From positions 1 to 64,000 of the forward strand of contig NZ_JAALJI010000017.1 in NCBI RefSeq assembly GCF_011064595.1: DNA of 64,000 nt. Reading direction: 5' to 3'. The position numbers and the translations under genes were made by a program. Positions 25,105 through 41,252 of the stretch are shown piece by piece. The notes below the pieces were generated by a model. The model had not been told where the DNA came from. It saw only the letters and a list, made by a program, of their open reading frames with translations, and did not search any database. Every line of letters begins with the position of its first letter. Within the stretch, counting starts at the first letter, position 1. This DNA is from Paludisphaera soli. GTDB lineage: Bacteria > Planctomycetota > Planctomycetia > Isosphaerales > Isosphaeraceae.

Positions 25105-28062
25105 TCATGGGATGTAGACGACGCCCCGGGAGTTCGTCAGGTCGACGTTCCCCCGGGCGTTGCCGACGATCGTGGAGTTCCGCACGACGGTGCCGGCGGA
25201 GTCCCCCTCGGCGTAGAGGCCGTAGCCCTGGTTGGAGAGGATCTCGACGCCCTGCACGGCGTTGTTCCTCGAGGACCGGACGGCCAGGCCGTCGCCGCCG
25301 TTGCCGGCGATCCTGACGAAGAAGGGCGAGGCGTCGCCGCCGATCCGGGTCCCCTTGGTCCCGGGTCCCAGCAGCACGCCGCCGAGCCGGTTGCCCAGGA
25401 TGCCGAGGCCCTCGGCGTCGGTGCCGACGTAGGTGTGGAAGATCGCGTTGTCGCGGGCCTGCTCGACGACCTCGATCCCGTAGCCGCCGTTGGCCGAGAC
25501 GGTCACCCGAGGCTCCACCGAGGGCTGGAAGCCGCCGATCGCGTTGCCCCGGGCGCGGCCGGCGATCCGGATGCCGCTGCCGCCGTTGGGGATGGCCGTC
25601 TGGATGTTGGTGTTGGTGCCGATCGACGTGTCGGTGATCTGCACGCCGGTCGCCTTGCCGCTCAGCTCGATCCCGTCGCCCAGGTTGCCCGAGACGATGC
25701 TCGTGCGGACCAGGTTGTCCCCGCCGCTCGACGTGATCAGGATGCCGTCGCCCCGGTTCGGCGCCGCGCCGGCGAACGCGAAGATGCCGGCGAACGTGTT
25801 GAACGAGATGAAGCCGCTGGCCTTGTCGCGGACCTCGATGCCGTTGCGGTCGTTGCCCGAGATCACGTTCCCCAGCGGGATCACGCCGCCGACCTGGGTG
25901 TTCCGCGAGCTTCCCGAGATCAAGAGGCCGTTGCCGCCGTTGGCGACGATCGTGGCGTTGTCGGCCCCGGCGCCCAGGAAGTTCGCCTGGACGACCGTGT
26001 CGTTGGAGTTGGTCACCCGCAGGCCGTTGCCGCCGTTGCCGCTGAGCACGTTGTAGAAGACGAACGGGCTCTGCCGGAACGTGGTGCCGAGGAGCTGGTT
26101 GCCGTTCGCGCGGTCGATCGCCACGCCGTCCAGCCGGTTCCCCAGCGCGGCGACGCCGGAGGCGGTCGTCCCCACGAAGTTGCCGGCCAGGACGTTCCGC
26201 GAGGCCCCGCCGTTCAGGAGCACGCCGTTGCCCCGGTTGCCGGAGATCAAATTGCCCTGCGGGGGCCGGACGAACACGCCCCCCGTGGGATTATTGCCGC
26301 CGGTCGCCTCGCCGCCGATCAGGTTCCGCGAGGCCCCCTTCGTCACCAGCACGCCGCTGCCGCGATTGCCCCGGGCCGAGGTCCCGGAGGCGTCGGTGCC
26401 GATGTAGTTCATCCCCAGGACGTTGTCGTCCGAGCCGTAGATCCCCACGCCGTTGCCGCAGTTGCCGGCGATCACGTTGGAGAGCTGGAAGCCGACGTTG
26501 ATCGTCGCCTGGTACGAGAAGACCCCCGTGTCCGCCAGCACGATGCCGACCACCTGATTGCCGACCACCGAGTCCGACGTGACCGAAGCGTCCACGCCGG
26601 GGTACGACAGGTCCACCCAGGCCGCCTCGCCGAAGCTGCCGTCGGTGTTGCGGCGGACGGTCGCGACCGAGCCGAGCTCGAAGGTGCTCGTCCCGGTCAG
26701 GCTCGACCCCGCGCTTAGCGTGTAGACCCCATTCTCGACGCTGCTGATCCCCTCGAAGTGGGTGACGAACTCCAGGCCCGCCGGCGATTGCGGGTGCTCG
26801 TAGGACTTCCAGTTCGTGAACGCGCCGGTGGCCGAGTCGTAGTCGACGATGTAGCCCTCGCCGATCGGCCGGTGCTGGTCGTCCAGGTTGTTCACCGGGG
26901 TCTGGGCGTAGCCGCCGACGATGGTGTAGCTCGTCCCGCCGTTGTACCAGATGCCGTAGGCGGTGTTGCTCAGCGAGCCGGGGAAGGTGATGTCGGTGAC
27001 GAACGACGCCGTCGCCACGTCGTAGAGGAAGGCGCGGCCGGGGCCGATCGGCTCGCCGTTCTGGGTCGGGCCGTCGTAGTTGCCGACGGCCAGGCCCCCC
27101 ATCGTGCTGTGGACGTAGTTGAACTTCGCGTCGGGCTTGGCGATCGTCCGGTAGTTGGCCGCGTTCGTCAGGTCGGCGGTCGTCCCCTCGAAGACGAAGC
27201 CGTTGACCACCCCCTCGCCGGTCCGGTAGCTGCCGACCAGGCGGACGCGGTCGCCGTCGAGGTTGTCCGGGCCGTAGACGCTGGTGGTCGTCGCGCCGGG
27301 GTAGTTGACCGCGTAGCTGGTCCCCCCCGCGCCCGAGATCGGCCCGACGTAGAGCAGCCCGGCGCTGTTGGAGGTGCCGCTGATGAGGTACTGGCCGGCG
27401 GAGTCGGCCTGGCGGATCCCCTGCCAGCCCGAGACCGGCTGCATGCTCACGGCGTCGGCGTTGTAGTAGGTGATGCTCGAAACCGGGTCCTCGCGGCCGA
27501 TCAAGTTGCCGTGCGAGGAGCCGTTGATCCGCACGCCGTCGCCCCGGTTGGCGGCGACGGTGGAGCCGTCGGCGAGCAGGCCGATGTAGTTCCCCTGCAC
27601 GGTGATCCGCGAGGCGTTCAGGGTCACGCCGTCGTTCCCCGCCCGCACGATCGCCAGCGACGAGAGCGTGGAGCCGTCGCTGCCGCGATCGAACCGGAAG
27701 CCCTTCGAGTTCTGGAAGTCCACCGTGACGACCGGCGCGCCGGCGAAGCCCGGAGCCGAGCCGCCGTCGATCGTCACCGCGTCGGTGATCGCCGGCAGCG
27801 ACCGCCGGCCGACCCCGATCGTCCCGGAGACCGCGAAGTCGATCGTGTCGGGCCCGGGCCTGGCGTTCGACTCGACGATCGCCCACCGCAGCGAGCCCTG
27901 ACCGTTGGGTGCGAGGCTGTCCACCGTGAAGGTCGACAGGAGCTGTCGCTCCTCCAGCGACTCCAGGGCCAGCTTGGGCCGGACGGTCGCGCGCCGGCCG
28001 CCACGCGGCGAGCCGATCCGGGAGGGGGATGCGGGGCGATGGTCGGGGCGGGAAACCGTCAT
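25105..28062 (-). CDS. Large surface beta-helix protein with LEPR-XLL-like motif
   Basis: The 985-aa product begins with a basic region and LALESLEERQLLS (31-43), which resembles the planctomycete LEPR-XLL N-terminal motif of large cell-surface proteins. Residues about 45-192 and 526-985 are right-handed parallel beta-helix, with recurring GNGGNGL, GNRGDGV and N-x-I-x-G turns. About residues 193-525 are different in style (YVGPISGAGGTSYAV, GRAFLYDVATASF, YTIVGGYAQTP), like a beta-propeller inserted into the helix. GAGGATCC precedes the ATG at 28062; the upstream extension runs into a dispersed repeat and was rejected. Likely an exported structural or carbohydrate-binding protein. Confidence 0.8.
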   Translation of the reverse strand: MTVSRPDHRPASPSRIGSPRGGRRATVRPKLALESLEERQLLSTFTVDSLAPNGQGSLRWAIVESNARPGPDTIDFAVSGTIGVGRRSLPAITDAVTIDGGSAPGFAGAPVVTVDFQNSKGFRFDRGSDGSTLSSLAIVRAGNDGVTLNASRITVQGNYIGLLADGSTVAANRGDGVRINGSSHGNLIGREDPVSSITYYNADAVSMQPVSGWQGIRQADSAGQYLISGTSNSAGLLYVGPISGAGGTSYAVNYPGATTTSVYGPDNLDGDRVRLVGSYRTGEGVVNGFVFEGTTADLTNAANYRTIAKPDAKFNYVHSTMGGLAVGNYDGPTQNGEPIGPGRAFLYDVATASFVTDITFPGSLSNTAYGIWYNGGTSYTIVGGYAQTPVNNLDDQHRPIGEGYIVDYDSATGAFTNWKSYEHPQSPAGLEFVTHFEGISSVENGVYTLSAGSSLTGTSTFELGSVATVRRNTDGSFGEAAWVDLSYPGVDASVTSDSVVGNQVVGIVLADTGVFSYQATINVGFQLSNVIAGNCGNGVGIYGSDDNVLGMNYIGTDASGTSARGNRGSGVLVTKGASRNLIGGEATGGNNPTGGVFVRPPQGNLISGNRGNGVLLNGGASRNVLAGNFVGTTASGVAALGNRLDGVAIDRANGNQLLGTTFRQSPFVFYNVLSGNGGNGLRVTNSNDTVVQANFLGAGADNATIVANGGNGLLISGSSRNTQVGGVIPLGNVISGNDRNGIEVRDKASGFISFNTFAGIFAFAGAAPNRGDGILITSSGGDNLVRTSIVSGNLGDGIELSGKATGVQITDTSIGTNTNIQTAIPNGGSGIRIAGRARGNAIGGFQPSVEPRVTVSANGGYGIEVVEQARDNAIFHTYVGTDAEGLGILGNRLGGVLLGPGTKGTRIGGDASPFFVRIAGNGGDGLAVRSSRNNAVQGVEILSNQGYGLYAEGDSAGTVVRNSTIVGNARGNVDLTNSRGVVYIP

Positions 28063-28254
28063 GGTGGGATCCTCAGAGGGTGCGTGAGACGACGGGGGCC
28101 TCTGCGTAGGGCCCCGGAAAGACGATCGCCGGCGACGTCGCCGCAAGCGCGGTGCGCGGCCAGGGCGTCGGGGATTTTGAAAGGAATCTAGGACACGAAA
28201 GGGGAAGTAGCGCGGACAAACAGGTGGGGGCGAGATTCGAAGGAGGCCCAATAT

Positions 28255-28312
28255 CCTTCCCCCCTCGCGGGGGAAGGTGGCCGAAGGCCGGATGAGGGGG
28301 AAGACAAGCACG
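28255..28312 (+). repeat. Dispersed double-hairpin repeat (plus orientation)
   Basis: CCTTCCCCCCTCGCGGGGGAAGG hairpin split by CTCGC, followed by TGGCCGAAGGCC and GGATGAGGGGG. It lies upstream of the beta-helix gene, 42 bases before the first inverted-repeat-ended element. Confidence 0.8.
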
Positions 28313-28352
28313 AACGCCGTCGCGGTCTCGTCGGGCCCGACCGCCTCGTGAT

Positions 28353-28432
28353 CCACCCCCGACAGTGCTGCGAGTTGCTATGCAGCTGCCCCGAGTCTCA
28401 CACTGGGAGCGGACTCGTTTGAAGGGGGCAGG
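28353..28432 (+). repeat. ~80-bp element A with terminal inverted repeats
   Basis: The element runs from CCACCCCC to GGGGGCAGG and shares about three quarters of its bases, with one indel, with element B at 30902-30981. Shared blocks include ACAGTGCT, GTTGCTATG, GCGGACTCGT and GAAGGGGGCAGG. The two copies are in direct orientation and bracket the 28.4-30.9 kb segment. Size and ends suggest a MITE-like element. Confidence 0.6.
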
Positions 28433-28514
28433 TCACCGCCGACCCCCGCCAAGGCGTCGCTGATGGCCCCGTCGTCGATGTCAGCCCCCTGAGGGGGGCG
28501 TTGCTGATCGCTAG

Positions 28515-29162
28515 GGACCTGACGGTTCCCGTCGCCTCCTAAGCCCGCTCGCCCGCCCCGCCTCGCTGGGCCGCCCCGACGTCGTCGCGGACCTCGCCCC
28601 ACGAATCGCCACCCAGAAGCCTGCTTTGCTCAATCTCCGAGACCCTGAGACGGGCCAATACATCGTCTACAGCCGGACGAACTACTCACTCCCCAACACG
28701 ACCCGCTTCGTGGTCAACGACCCCGGCAAGCGGGCTTCCCCGACGGCCTCGAAGGACGCGTCGGCGACGCCTTGAAGCGGGGCGTAACCTCGAACTGCTA
28801 CCGGGGTGGGCGCTCGTCCCGCTCGATGCGATGGGTCCCCGGACGCGGGGCCTGGAACTGGCGACCCGTTCCGTCCTGGCCACCTCCTTGCCCGCGTCGC
28901 CCCCCGAATTCACGGACGTCCTCCGCGGCAAGTCCGCCGTCGGCCTCCTCGGCGTCCGCTTCGCGAGCATCAACGGCCGACATCAACTGGCGAGCATTAC
29001 GACGAAGACGTCGGCCACGGCGGCGGGATGGATCGCGGACGGGGATCCGGCCCCCAAGGCTCCCCGATCGTCGAGGACCCGGGCGGCGGGACGAAGACGC
29101 TCGCGGTGTCGAGGATCGTCGAGCGGAAAGTTTGGAATTCGAACGACGACGACTTGGGGTAG
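28515..29162 (+). pseudogene. Decayed gene with several frame changes
   Basis: The plus strand carries coding-like pieces in successive frames. About 28536-28735 reads LGRPDVVADLAPRIATQKPA then LRDPETGQYIVYSRTNYS and TTRFVVNDPGKR, stopping at 28773. A short piece FPDGLEGRVGDALKRG follows in a second frame. About 28810-28990 reads LVPLDAMGPRTRGLELATRS then FTDVLRGKSAVGLLGVRFAS in a third frame. The end (about 29000-29162) returns to the first frame with PGGGTKTLAVSRIVERKVWN. No start codon is obvious. At least three frame changes show a dead gene; I do not recognise its family. Confidence 0.5.
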
Positions 29163-29214
29163 ACCCAACAGTCGTGTCGCCAGCCGCCATTAGGCGACGG
29201 CACCCTCGGTCCGA

Positions 29215-30660
29215 TCACGAGGCATCACCACATCCGGCGCTCGGTCCTTCCCGGTCACCCGCCAGCAGCTGTGCGAGGATCGTTTCCAAATCACGCACAC
29301 GCTGTAGGAGTTGCTCGCTGCTCGGGGGCGGTCCTGAGGGGGCCAGCGACTCCCGACGGATCTCGTTCAACCGGGCTGCCGCCTCGGCCGCGATCGAATT
29401 CGTCTCCGAAAAGCGAGGCGGGGCGGGAGGCGTGGAGGTGCACATCATCCTGGCGACAGTTCGGTGATATTGGTTTTGCAGCCGGCCACTGAAAGGGAAA
29501 GAGAAATTAAAAATGTTGTGGTCACAAATAAGTTTAGAACCAAGATCGTAGTCGTCGCGGGTGCCTGCTTTAATCGCGACTTGCTCGTTCTGGGCGAAGA
29601 AATTCCTGTCAACGATGCAGGATTGCGCCGGGCACCCACGCACCAGCACCCCGCTCGACACCCCGCCCCTTGGATTGCCGTTGCTCTGCGGAATCCCTGG
29701 CATCCAAACCGAATTATTCATAAATACGTTGCAGTGAATATAAATATACTGGCTCGTCCGATTGGGCAGTTCGGTGCACCGGTTGACTACGCGGTCGGGA
29801 GTCGGAAACGCCAATTCGATGGAGGCTTCTATGTCGTCTTCATCGTCCTGATCCGAGCCGTCGATCACGGTTCCCGTTTGGTTGAGGTGGACGTCGAAGG
29901 CGCTTCCGTGAGGGTCGTCGATAAAGTTTCCCCTCGCCTCGTAGCCGGTTTCGAACTCCCCGTTCGACGCTACGCCATGCCAGTTGTCCTGGAAATAATT
30001 CCCCTCGACCAGGATGAACGTCGGTTGGGTTCCGACGAAAATTGGGTAGGCCCGATCTAGGCCGCGGGGAATGCCTAGAGCGGGATTTTCATTGAATCTT
30101 TTGAAACTTACAAACGAACAGTTTCTCACGACGGAATCGATGCTTCGACCGAACCCCACTCCCGTCCCGGGCACGCTCCGGAAGTCGCAGCTCTCGATAG
30201 TGCAACGGTTAGCGTCGACTACCGCAACCATGTTCGCGCGAATGCCGAGTACGTTCACATCGGGGCCTGAAATTCGAACGCCGACCAATCGGGCGTCGTC
30301 GCCGGACAAGCGGATGAACGACGAATACACCCCGGTGGGATTGCCGTCTGAATCTGTCGCGTGTCCGCCACCTGCGACGTTGTCGTAGGTGACGAAGAGC
30401 TTTGCGCCCTGTGAGTAGGAAAAACGCCCCCGGGGGTCTCTGATGAATTTACCCCTGCCACTCGCCAGCGTAACGCCTGCCTTTATGACAAGTTCCCTGG
30501 TGGTCCCGTCGTCGAAGACGTCTGTTCCTTCGTCGCACCGGATCTCCAACGCATCATCCACATAGACGATATCTCCCGGTAGGGCCCGGTCCAGCAGGCC
30601 CCTCAATTCGTGGTAGTTTGTGTTGTTGCTTCCAGATTCGCCTAGAACGTACATGGTCAT
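29215..30660 (-). CDS. Lower-GC right-handed beta-helix protein
   Basis: The 481-aa product is a pectate-lyase-like parallel beta-helix (about residues 20-400): LPGDIVYVDDALEI, ARLVGVRISGPDVNVLGIRAN, TIESCDFRSVPGTGVGFG, ILVEGNYFQDNWHGVASN and SCIVDRNFFAQNEQVAIKAG are successive coils. The last ~60 residues (ETNSIAAEAAARLNEIRRES, then LLQRVRDLETILAQLLAG) form a helix or coiled coil. No signal peptide is visible, unlike the other beta-helix proteins here. Base composition is clearly lower in GC and richer in Asn and Ile than the neighbours, suggesting transfer. The function is unknown; polysaccharide binding or cleavage is the common role of such folds. Confidence 0.75.
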   Translation of the reverse strand: MTMYVLGESGSNNTNYHELRGLLDRALPGDIVYVDDALEIRCDEGTDVFDDGTTRELVIKAGVTLASGRGKFIRDPRGRFSYSQGAKLFVTYDNVAGGGHATDSDGNPTGVYSSFIRLSGDDARLVGVRISGPDVNVLGIRANMVAVVDANRCTIESCDFRSVPGTGVGFGRSIDSVVRNCSFVSFKRFNENPALGIPRGLDRAYPIFVGTQPTFILVEGNYFQDNWHGVASNGEFETGYEARGNFIDDPHGSAFDVHLNQTGTVIDGSDQDDEDDIEASIELAFPTPDRVVNRCTELPNRTSQYIYIHCNVFMNNSVWMPGIPQSNGNPRGGVSSGVLVRGCPAQSCIVDRNFFAQNEQVAIKAGTRDDYDLGSKLICDHNIFNFSFPFSGRLQNQYHRTVARMMCTSTPPAPPRFSETNSIAAEAAARLNEIRRESLAPSGPPPSSEQLLQRVRDLETILAQLLAGDREGPSAGCGDAS

Positions 30661-31030
30661 TCTGCAACGTACCTTCTGTGAACGGGCGATTTGGGGATCC
30701 AGCAGTCAGTGCCACAATACTCCATCAAGTCCGAGTTTTGCGGTCAAGAATCCAGTGCCACCAAACTGCACTTTCCGGAACTTTGTTCGTTCGACCGAAG
30801 TCAGGCGTTCTGAGCGAGGGATCGCCTGAGGAATAGGTCCCCGGTGTGATCCTCCCGACACATTCCCCGAACTTCCGGGGGTCGAGTCTGGCGAAGACTG
30901 ACCTGCCCCCCACAGTGCTTCCGGTTGCTATGTTAGTGCCACGTGCGAGAAACGGGGGCGGACTCGTCGGAAGGGGGCAGGCGGCTACCGGATTCGAAAG
31001 ACTCCGGCCGCCGTGACCGGTCGCCCGCGA
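30661..31030. other. Spacer between beta-helix gene and oxidoreductase gene
   Basis: Lower-GC sequence upstream of the beta-helix start (30661-30840) probably holds its promoter, but no convincing -35/-10 pair stands out. Element B occupies 30902-30981. No gene is seen. Confidence 0.5.
30902..30981 (+). repeat. ~80-bp element B with terminal inverted repeats
   Basis: The ends CCTGCCCCC (30902-30910) and GGGGGCAGG (30973-30981) are perfect inverted repeats. The interior matches element A. No transposase is present, so it would be non-autonomous. Confidence 0.6.
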
Positions 31031-32125
31031 TCAATCGAGCCGTACGGTCTTCCCCTCGGCGGCGGAGCGGCGGGCGGCGTCGAGGATCTCGACGACGAGG
31101 AGGTTGTTGCGCAGGGAGGAGGGGCCGGAGGGCTCGATCTCGCGGCGGACGACGGCGGCGAAGTAGCGGAGGAAGTCGTCCTCAGGGGCGGACAGGGGGG
31201 CGGCGCGGCGGGTTTCTTCGGGCCGGCCTTCGAGGCGGACGCGGACGCCGTCCTGGGCGACGGTGAGGACCTGGCCGGTCCGGCCGTAGACCTCCATGTC
31301 CTTGCGGTCGAAGGGCCAGTTCCACGAGGCCTGGATGATCGCCTGGGCGGTGGGGTACTCCAGGATGATGGTGGCCTCGTCGTCGACGCGGGGGTAGACC
31401 TCGGGCTTGAACCGCCGGGTGACGGCGGTGACGGACAGGGGGCGGGCGTCGTCCATCAGCCAGGTCATGAGGTTGGCGCCGTAGCAGCCGAAGTCGAACA
31501 GGGCCCCCGCGCCGTTGCGGTCGGGGTCGGTGAGCCAGTCCAGGAACTCGGGCTGGACGCCGATCTCCTTCGGCCCCCCGTGGCCGTCGTGGAAGACGAC
31601 CTTGCAGATCGCGCCCAGGGCCTTCGCGGTCTTCGCCAGGGCGTAGGCGGCGTGGTTGGACGGGTGCCAGGTCGTCTCGTAGTTCACCAGGACCGGGACG
31701 CCCCCCTCGGCCGCCGCCTTCTCGATGGCGCGGGCCTGCTCGACCGAGACGGCCAGCGGCTTCTCCATCATCACCGGGATCTTGCGGCGGGCGCAGGCCT
31801 CGACGACGGCCAGGTGGTCGACGGTGCTGGTGAAGGCGACGACGGCCTCGGGCTTCGCGCGGTCGAGCATCGCGTCGAGCGAGCCGTGGACCCGCGCCGG
31901 GTCGAGCCGGGAGCGCTCGACGTAGCGCGCCGCGACGGCGCGGTCGGGCTCGGAGACGCCGACGAGGTCGACCTCCCGGGAGTCGCGATAGCGGCCCAGG
32001 AACCCGGCCGCGTGGCCGTGAACCAGCCCGGCCATCCCCAACCGCAGGGGCGCCGCCGCCGCCGGGGCCGGGGCCGTCGCGACCAGGGCCCCGGCCGTCG
32101 TCCCCAGGAACGTCCTTCGCTTCAT
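31031..32125 (-). CDS. Gfo/Idh/MocA family oxidoreductase, Tat-exported
   Basis: The 364-aa product begins with a Tat leader (MKRRTFLGTTAGALVATAPA). The Rossmann domain opens LRLGMAGLVHGHAAGF (about 27-42), with a His in place of the usual Gly-rich continuation. The family motif MMEKPLAVSVEQA (about 118-130) is intact. The C-terminal domain has GALFDFGCYGANLMTWL (about 209-225), where the family normally carries D-x-G-x-H; Tyr/Asn here replaces the His, so the catalysed reaction may differ. Substrate is likely a sugar or polyol derivative. The gene is alone on this strand segment, 100 bases after the flavin oxidoreductase start side. Confidence 0.8.
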   Translation of the reverse strand: MKRRTFLGTTAGALVATAPAPAAAAPLRLGMAGLVHGHAAGFLGRYRDSREVDLVGVSEPDRAVAARYVERSRLDPARVHGSLDAMLDRAKPEAVVAFTSTVDHLAVVEACARRKIPVMMEKPLAVSVEQARAIEKAAAEGGVPVLVNYETTWHPSNHAAYALAKTAKALGAICKVVFHDGHGGPKEIGVQPEFLDWLTDPDRNGAGALFDFGCYGANLMTWLMDDARPLSVTAVTRRFKPEVYPRVDDEATIILEYPTAQAIIQASWNWPFDRKDMEVYGRTGQVLTVAQDGVRVRLEGRPEETRRAAPLSAPEDDFLRYFAAVVRREIEPSGPSSLRNNLLVVEILDAARRSAAEGKTVRLD

Positions 32126-32225
32126 CGTCGCACCCCCCTCGCCAGGTCGACCGCCGGACAGGCCGCGACTCGATCCTGACGCGCCCCCGGGCCCGACGCC
32201 AGCCCCGGCCGCCGGGCCGCCGCGA

Positions 32226-33185
32226 TCAGCGGAGCTGGGGCAGCACGCGGCCGGCGAAGGTCTCGATGAAGGCGTCCTGGTTGCGGCCGAGGTTGTGCAG
32301 GTAGATGCGCTCGAAGCCGAGTTCGGCGTCGCGGGCGAGCCAGTCGACGAACCGGGAGGGGTCGCTGGAGACCCGCAGGCGGTCGCGGATCATCTCGGGC
32401 GTCACGGCGCGGGCGGCCTCGGCGAAGGCCTCGGGGGAGGGGAGGTCGGCGAGCCGTCCGGGGTCCAGGCCGGCCTGGCGCCATTCGCGGTGGGCGGCGC
32501 GGAGGGCCTCGTCGTCGGTCTCGGCGTAGGAGAGGGCGACCTGGAGGAACAGGGGCTTGCCCTCGCCGCCCCCCTCGCGGAAGGCGTCGATCCGCTTGCG
32601 GAGGGGGTCGGGCTCGCCGGCGACGGTGATGAGGGCGTCGGCCCAGCCGCCGGCCCAGCGGGCGGTCTCCTCGGTGAGCGCCGCGCCGACGACGAGCGGC
32701 GGCGTCTCGGGGGTCGTATAGAGCCGGGCGTCCTTCACGGTCACCAGCCCCTCGTGGTCGACCGTCTCGCCCCGCCAGAGGGCGCGTATGGCCTCGACGC
32801 ATTCGAGGGGCCGGGCGTGGCGGGCGGGCTTCGGCGGCCAGGGGGCGCCGGTGACGTGCTCGTTCAGGGCCTCGCCGCTGGCGACCGAGAGCCAGAACCG
32901 GCCGGGGAACATCTGGCCGAGGGTCGCCGCCGCCTGGGCGACGATCGCCGGGTGGTAGCGGTCGCCGGGCGCGCAGACGGTCCCGAACGAGAGCCCGGTC
33001 GCCTGCATCGCCGCGCCGAGCCAGGCGAACGAGAAGCCGGACTGGCCCTGCTCGGGGAGCCAGGGGTGGAAGTGGTCCGAGCACATCCCCGCGCCGAAGC
33101 CCGAGGCCTCGGCGAGCCGGGCGAGCCGGAGCAATTCGGACGGGGCGTGCTGCTCGTGGGCGCAGTGGAATCCGATGGTCGCCAT
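32226..33185 (-). CDS. LLM-class flavin oxidoreductase (TIGR03885/TIGR03557-like)
   Basis: The 319-aa product is a luciferase-like TIM barrel: ATIGFHCAHEQHAPSELL at the start, SGFGAGMCSDHFHPWLPEQG (about 34-53), LSFGTVCAPGDRYHPA, FWLSVASGEALNEH (about 102-115), PPLVVGAALTEETARWAGGW and a C-terminal GFERIYLHNLGRNQDAFIE. The set fits the probable non-F420 flavinoid oxidoreductase group, which uses FMN or a related flavin; the substrate is unknown. ATG at 33185 is preferred over the one five codons upstream because AGGCGA precedes it. The next gene upstream on the same strand encodes an acyltransferase. Confidence 0.8.
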   Translation of the reverse strand: MATIGFHCAHEQHAPSELLRLARLAEASGFGAGMCSDHFHPWLPEQGQSGFSFAWLGAAMQATGLSFGTVCAPGDRYHPAIVAQAAATLGQMFPGRFWLSVASGEALNEHVTGAPWPPKPARHARPLECVEAIRALWRGETVDHEGLVTVKDARLYTTPETPPLVVGAALTEETARWAGGWADALITVAGEPDPLRKRIDAFREGGGEGKPLFLQVALSYAETDDEALRAAHREWRQAGLDPGRLADLPSPEAFAEAARAVTPEMIRDRLRVSSDPSRFVDWLARDAELGFERIYLHNLGRNQDAFIETFAGRVLPQLR

Positions 33186-33277
33186 GCTTCGCCTGGGCAT
33201 CCGATGGGCGTCGTGGGTCCGGGGACGTCCCCGGGCGAAGCTGCAAGACGCGCGCCGAGCGGCCTCGAACCCGACGG

Positions 33278-34417
33278 TCAGGGCGTCGTCGCGTCCCCCT
33301 TCGCCGTCGAGACGGTCGCCGCCGTCCGCGTCGCCGGGTCGCCCATCGGGAAGTGGGGCGCCGGGGGCGGGCGTCGCGTCGTCGGCGTCCGGCGGGCCAG
33401 CCGCAGGGCCGGGCGTTCGACCAGCCGGAGGCTCAGGAAGGCGCAGGCCCCGGCGATCGCCCAGGCGGACAGGAACAGCGAATACGGCCCCAGTTGCGGG
33501 CGATACGCGGTGACCAGCATGACCTGGATCGGATAGGCGTACAGGTAGAGCCCGTACGAGTAGTCGCCCAGCCAGGCCAGCCGCGCCGCGAGCCCGCGCG
33601 GGCGGAGGGCCGCGAACAGCAGCGCGTAGGTCCCGAAGATCGGGAACGCCGGCGACATCACGCGGTACGGCCAGAACCAGTACGGCGCCCAGCCGGCGGC
33701 GAACCAGGCCAGGCCGGCCGTCGACGCGGCGAACCACGCCCACGAGAGCGGGATCCGGTCGCGGTAGGCGTGGCAGGCCGCCCCGGCCAGGAAGCCGGTC
33801 AGGAAGCGGGGGTGCTGGTCCTCGATCCCGCCCTCCACGCCGGAGACGAACCAGGCCGCGTACACGGCCCACGAGGCCGCCGCCATCGCCAGGATCGGCC
33901 AGCGCCGGGCGAACAGCCCGGCCGACCCGACCAGGCCGATGAACAGGTAGTAATAGAAGTCGTAGCGGATCGTCCAGAGCGAGCCGTTCATCGCCAGCTC
34001 GCGGTAGTCGAGCATCAAGGCCGGCAGGAGGAAGCCGCTCCAGAACGGCAGGTCCGGCCTCGCCTGGCCTCGGGCCGCGAGCCACGGCCCGGCCGCGTAG
34101 CTGGTGAAGACGACCGCCGCGAGGAAGCCGGGATAGACCCGAAGCGCCCGCCGGGTCAGGAAGTCGGCCCAGCCCCGAGAGCTTTCCCAGCTCCGCGCGA
34201 CCAGGAAGCCGCTGAGGACGAAGAACGCGTCGACCGCGATCCTCCCCACCGTGTACTGGCCGCAGGTCAGCCGCACCAGCGGGTCGCAGTCGAGCGACGC
34301 GACGTAGAAGTAGAACGAGTGCGAGAGGATGACGAGGCTCGTGAGCACGAACCGCAGCAGGCCGACGGCGTTCTCGCGATCGCCCGGGGGACGATCCAGG
34401 GTTGGGCGGTTTTTCAT
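33278..34417 (-). CDS. Acyltransferase 3 family membrane protein
   Basis: The 379-aa product has about ten membrane helices and the family signatures: LLRFVLTSLVILSHSFYFY with the catalytic His near residue 33, VGRIAVDAFFVLSGFLVARSW (about 57-77), DFLTRRALRVYPGFLAAVVF (about 85-104) and GDYSYGLYLYAYPIQVMLV near 305. Such integral membrane enzymes transfer acyl groups to exported glycans or lipids, for example O-acetylation of polysaccharide. The C-terminal ~35 residues are a Pro/Thr-rich cytoplasmic tail. Target and donor cannot be read from sequence. Confidence 0.85.
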   Translation of the reverse strand: MKNRPTLDRPPGDRENAVGLLRFVLTSLVILSHSFYFYVASLDCDPLVRLTCGQYTVGRIAVDAFFVLSGFLVARSWESSRGWADFLTRRALRVYPGFLAAVVFTSYAAGPWLAARGQARPDLPFWSGFLLPALMLDYRELAMNGSLWTIRYDFYYYLFIGLVGSAGLFARRWPILAMAAASWAVYAAWFVSGVEGGIEDQHPRFLTGFLAGAACHAYRDRIPLSWAWFAASTAGLAWFAAGWAPYWFWPYRVMSPAFPIFGTYALLFAALRPRGLAARLAWLGDYSYGLYLYAYPIQVMLVTAYRPQLGPYSLFLSAWAIAGACAFLSLRLVERPALRLARRTPTTRRPPPAPHFPMGDPATRTAATVSTAKGDATTP

Positions 34418-41213: not shown

Positions 41214-41252
41214 GAAGCTATTGCAGAAGATGACGTTCGACCCGGACGACGG

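Follow-up and report, generated by a model that had tools for sequence, protein, structure and literature searches.

Bacterial MITEs are short, non-coding elements whose terminal inverted repeats are in common with those of a parent IS. For miniatures derived from Tn3, pairs were shown to move the intervening DNA, with 5-bp duplications left on proven transposition; these are TIME-COMP1 (2469 bp) and TIME-COMP2 (3892 bp, with the miniatures in the same orientation) (PMC4133298). Within the IS3 family, transposition of IS2 is reported to be a two-step process that passes through a minicircle (PMC3299598). Among titles and the opening parts of abstracts we found no report of IS3-derived MITEs in planctomycetes, a level at which their absence is not proven.

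The window analyzed here, i.e., the whole stretch of 64,000 nucleotides (G000:C79:1-64000), belongs to a genome of 7.97 Mb in 197 contigs. It carries two IS3-derived miniature elements, A (positions 28349-28435, minus strand, 87 bp) and B (30899-30984, minus strand, 86 bp), which are spaced about 2.55 kb apart and give an A-to-B size of 2.6 kb. The initial annotation had placed two direct copies at 28353-28432 and 30902-30981. BLAST of the own genome confirmed that they are such copies (75% identity over 77 bases, E 3e-7), and their true termini were found 3-4 bases outside these coordinates. The likeness between A and B is confined to the elements themselves: inside them 33/45 and 25/33 positions agree vs. 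27/100 (left) and 34/100 (right) in the 100-bp flanks compared in register. No further full-length copy was detected by BLAST in the own genome, where the division into 197 contigs means that a copy could escape; the remaining 15 matches at E values up to 10 covered 14-27 bases each. Arithmetic from the genome size puts the chance of two independent random insertions this close at about 6 in 10,000. With no more than two copies, at a distance of 2.55 kb from each other, A and B are likely to be linked in some way.

On the minus strand both elements are read as an IS left end, about 20 bases and an IS right end. The termini of B form the perfect pair CCTGCCCCC/GGGGGCAGG, as had been annotated, and A is imperfect at its left terminus in window coordinates. 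When the minus strand of A is followed, the left end comes before the right end, the decayed terminus of which appears as TGATCCACCCCC on the plus strand. On the minus strand of B the right-end terminus is intact (GGGGGCAGGTCA), and the outer bases of the left end are mutated, with CCG for TGA. Transposase genes are absent from A and B, the total length being only 86-87 bp.

The two halves of B match the two ends of a complete 1282-bp IS with orfA and orfB in Isosphaeraceae bacterium KatS3mg108 (G004). Analysis of this parent element assigned orfA to PF01527 and OrfB to rve, rve_3, and HTH_21, with a match of OrfB to the NCBIfam model transpos_IS3 NF033516 (E 3e-65, 220.8 bits vs. a cut-off of 160). 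It has both features of the IS3 family, an orfA with HTH and an orfB with a DDE integrase core, and its right end contains the orfB stop codon. Compared with the G004 IS, the left ends of A and B agree at 24/26 and 19/26 positions, and the right ends at 28/42 and 34/42. For a 2476-bp copy in G011 the respective values are 25/26 and 20/26 (left), and 27/42 and 33/42 (right); in none of these comparisons with G004 and G011 did any of 5000 shuffles give an equal score. Against six copies from G060, the left ends agree at 18-22/26 (at most 1/5000 shuffles equal) and the right end of B at 24-25/42 (0/5000), while the match of the right end of A is weak (19/42, with 25-32/5000 shuffles equal). The inner 25-26 nt of the left end of A are identical in G029, G011, and G040.

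Two of the genomes with these ends showed further arrangements. The 2476-bp copy in G011 seems to contain a second IS3 gene; GGCC sequences flanking the copy were discounted as a target duplication, being palindromic and having that second gene between them. In G040, two IS left ends were observed in opposite orientation, 20 bp apart (G040:C6:82466-82539).

Judged by their sequence, A and B are miniature derivatives of an IS3-family IS with TGACCTGCCCCC ends that have lost orfA and orfB. Since left and right ends match one IS and the transposase genes are absent, the initial description of the elements as MITE-like was correct, and an IS3-family parent with both ends can now be assigned to them. 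These matches bear also on a different reading, according to which A and B are attC-like recombination sites or structured RNAs that bracket a gene cassette. It draws on the size of about 80 bp, the palindromic ends, the position of one element per side of the enclosed genes, and the minus strand of B, which folds better than most shuffles (8/200 equal). Yet both ends of A and B match a specific IS, no Rfam family reached its gathering score in 27000-33500, and folding of the element strands as single-stranded DNA was otherwise unremarkable (z -0.33 to -1.74). The attC core motif was not visible by eye at the element ends either, and we regard recombination sites or structured RNAs as extremely improbable.

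A flanking target duplication had been proposed in the initial annotation as a check for acquisition by transposition. None was detected around A, B, or the A-B interval, but the parent lineage shows this to be a weak test. We examined the best-scoring 80 named OrfB loci of at least 524 relatives; both ends were recognized at 54 of these best 80, the left end only at 9, the right end only at 13, and neither at 4. After six two-ended loci had been dropped for short flanks, a 4-bp duplication was present at 3 of the 48 that were left and a 2-bp match at two more. A recount that applied a different pairing rule and took complete 14-nt flanks comprised 55 copies (49 of the best 80 OrfB loci and the six G060 copies), and 4-bp duplications were again seen in three, with 0.21 expected by chance. 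No duplication was found in the seven single-length copies, namely the one from G004 and the six from G060, the latter representing two sets of three. As duplications are rare in the parent lineage (3/55), the missing duplication at A, B, or A-B says little.

We also followed the elements and their IS lineage through related genomes. At E values up to 0.001, BLAST with B gave matches in 4/45 family genomes including the own, and these were of half an element only in G004, G011, and G031. With B or A as query, no full-length element was found in the 44 other family genomes, which returned partial matches only. The exact joint pattern of left and right ends was present in 1/397 class genomes, i.e., the own genome, and there in B only, as the pattern misses A. 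OrfB relatives (E up to 1e-20) occurred in 18/44 related genomes including the own, many of them being other IS3 elements of about 40% identity. Traces of the lineage in the genus comprise left-end fragments in G029 and G028 (27-nt left-end match) and right-end fragments in G031. The own genome encodes four OrfB relatives that are 42-44% identical. Two own-genome OrfB loci were scanned for the end motif, of which one was devoid of it and the other had related but different ends; an autonomous copy with exactly the ends of A and B was not found in the 197 contigs.

In G031, an IS3 right end stands directly behind a DDE_3 transposase gene (L020/L026), which we take to be of the IS630 type; the arrangement is probably nested insertion debris. 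The IS3 lineage with TGACCTGCCCCC ends (L103-L182, L066, L068, L081-L084) was encountered in MAGs labeled as many phyla.

The interval between the elements had been annotated as holding one gene with several frame changes and one beta-helix gene of lower GC, and both observations stood. The broken gene is a relic (28543-29155, plus strand) that corresponds to the first half of a major capsid gene from a phage, with 82% DNA identity to G031:C5:9222-9847. By tblastn its pieces lie in frames +1, +3, +2, and +1, and the relic ends near residue ~180 of the 372-aa protein of the G031 relative. This protein was recognized by PF05065 Phage_capsid (E 1.9e-16), presumably the HK97-type capsid, and by phrog_617 major head protein (E 3.6e-24). 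Pfam detected no family in three open frames taken from the relic, the GC content of which is 69%. The G031 relative resides on a small contig (L087, G031:C5, 12514 bp), in which a gene for a D5-type primase/helicase (PF08706) accompanies the phage capsid gene. One frame continues across the ends of this contig, giving 665 aa vs. 551, which suggests that G031:C5 is circular, although no overlap joins its ends; it could be a capsid-encoding satellite or a phage-plasmid.

Immediately after the capsid break we identified the end of a second, unrelated repeat (29156-29199, plus strand). At E values up to 0.001 it had matches in 5/45 family genomes including the own, in which whole-genome BLAST gave no further copy beyond 29156-29199. 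In G003, the same end is present as an inverted pair that spans about 254 bp and resembles a miniature element.

The low-GC gene (29215-30660, minus strand) encodes a right-handed beta-helix protein of 481 aa, whose match to PF13229 (E 1.8e-5, 24.8 bits) is just below the Pfam cut-off of 25.9. Its GC3 is 0.672 vs. 0.956-0.976 in six neighboring frames, the limits of which were partly chosen by us. Searches for relatives were negative in the 44 other family genomes, including the five congeners (E up to 1e-10), in 391 other genomes of the phylum (E up to 1e-6), in phages and plasmids (E up to 1e-3), in the PDB (E up to 0.1), and in viral contigs and genome contigs. The structure predicted for the protein was uninformative (mean pLDDT 36.0). 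We consider the beta-helix gene to be probably foreign. The initial annotation is supported in that the enclosed genes appear foreign or relict, one with its 82% match to the G031 phage capsid and the other with no relatives in the searches above and a low GC3. The initial annotation had further stated that its proposal would fall if other copies were missing from related genomes and both internal genes were vertically conserved. The outcome is mixed: no full-length copies were found in relatives, yet these do carry the IS ends, and vertical conservation does not hold for the inner genes.

The GC content of 29201-30900 is 57%, compared to 71% for the window. A sharp change in composition at the matching ends, as initially described, could be seen at B, with which the GC shift coincides. 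At A there is no change; on this side the shift starts at about 29.2-29.5 kb, inside the interval.

To place the locus among its congeners, we used the genes on both sides. The gene left of A is present in 6/6 genus genomes including the own, in two of them in pieces, but synteny on the right side too was found only in G031 among the five congeners (12.5-13.5 kb upstream of the left gene were compared). The stretch 28195-33270, which includes A, the relics, B, and two genes beyond B, is without counterpart at this place in G031. There, about 174 unaligned bases stand instead, and homology resumes at window position 33271; the left edge is marked by a shared 13-nt motif at 28182-28194, which is weak alone (E 0.13). 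Beyond B stand genes for an oxidoreductase and for a luciferase-like protein; the second name was assigned by eye. A single-element empty site, which the initial annotation had suggested looking for, is absent from G031, the sole congener syntenic on both sides. The only match to part of B in the gap-side sequence of G031 (16/19 bases, E 1.6) was taken as chance. Because the edges of the G031 gap are not A and B, no single-element empty site exists in it, and the GC change lies inside the interval, the proposal that A, the island, and B arrived as one unit is not supported.

These data weigh also on the possibility of a decayed composite transposon, non-autonomous and TIME-COMP-like, with A and B as arms that moved the enclosed DNA as a unit. 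The two elements are in direct orientation, span 2.6 kb, constitute the sole full-length pair in the genome, and enclose foreign DNA, and composites of this kind have a demonstrated precedent in TIME-COMP1 and TIME-COMP2 (PMC4133298). Of what marks a composite, two miniatures flanking a cargo were found, while an outer duplication or a matching empty site was not. The larger stretch missing from G031 has edges other than A and B, the GC content changes within the interval and not at A, A and B diverge by about 25%, and the A-B interval is without a flanking duplication, although duplications are rare in the parent lineage (3/55). We therefore find such a composite unlikely. A more specific form, an IS3-family counterpart of TIME-COMP in which two miniature ends mobilized foreign DNA as a single non-autonomous unit, within a lineage whose insertions rarely carry target duplications, is doubtful and rather improbable.

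The absence of the stretch from G031 could in principle reflect a loss, if the region were ancestral and had been deleted in G031 or its lineage, with A and B as incidental insertions. Consistent with this, the oxidoreductase gene adjoining B has orthologs in G029 and G030 (2/5 congeners, 81-82%) and a native GC3 of 0.973. However, these orthologs are found in other surroundings: the 19-kb stretches around them align with window 15001-48000 in that gene only, bar dispersed repeats in G030. For the beta-helix gene, in turn, none of the five congeners gave a relative (E up to 1e-10), and we judge a deletion in G031 to be very unlikely. Dispersed repeats of about 47-70 bp were observed at window 28255-28301 and near 41252, 46491, 47025, 50171, and 50675, and are common to G029 and G030.

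In the light of these data, A and B are probably IS3 miniature relics in a genome-specific patch of mobile-DNA debris. As the alignments indicate, each miniature retains about 26 nt of the left end and about 40 nt of the right end, with orfA and orfB lost. A related IS3 transposase may have moved the miniatures in trans via their ends, which are now worn, so that A and B look immobile at present. The intergenic patch would have gathered mobile DNA, namely the capsid relic, the end of the second repeat, and the low-GC beta-helix gene. Joint movement of A and B is not needed for this, since one miniature re-inserting near the other, or foreign DNA captured between them, could give the same picture.

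Two otherwise anonymous palindromic repeats have thereby received a named parent, and an Isosphaeraceae genome is shown to contain IS3-type miniature relics. Should A and B have moved jointly at some time, genes could be carried by miniature IS3 ends that have no transposase of their own; on present evidence, the locus looks like ordinary mobile-DNA debris. With the IS3-family IS of G004, A and B have the left end, the right end, and the TGACC...GGTCA termini in common, but that IS possesses orfA and orfB, whereas the 86-87-bp elements have neither. The minicircle route reported for IS2 is presumed for the parent IS from its family membership. Two copies only were found and no target duplication was seen, which is unlike bacterial MITEs; like these, A and B are short, non-coding, and provided with the terminal inverted repeats of a parent IS. 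In TIME-COMP the ends are those of Tn3, transposition is proven, and 5-bp duplications are left, while A and B have IS3 ends and show neither of the other two. What the locus shares with TIME-COMP is the placement of two miniatures around unrelated DNA, for which the same orientation is possible.
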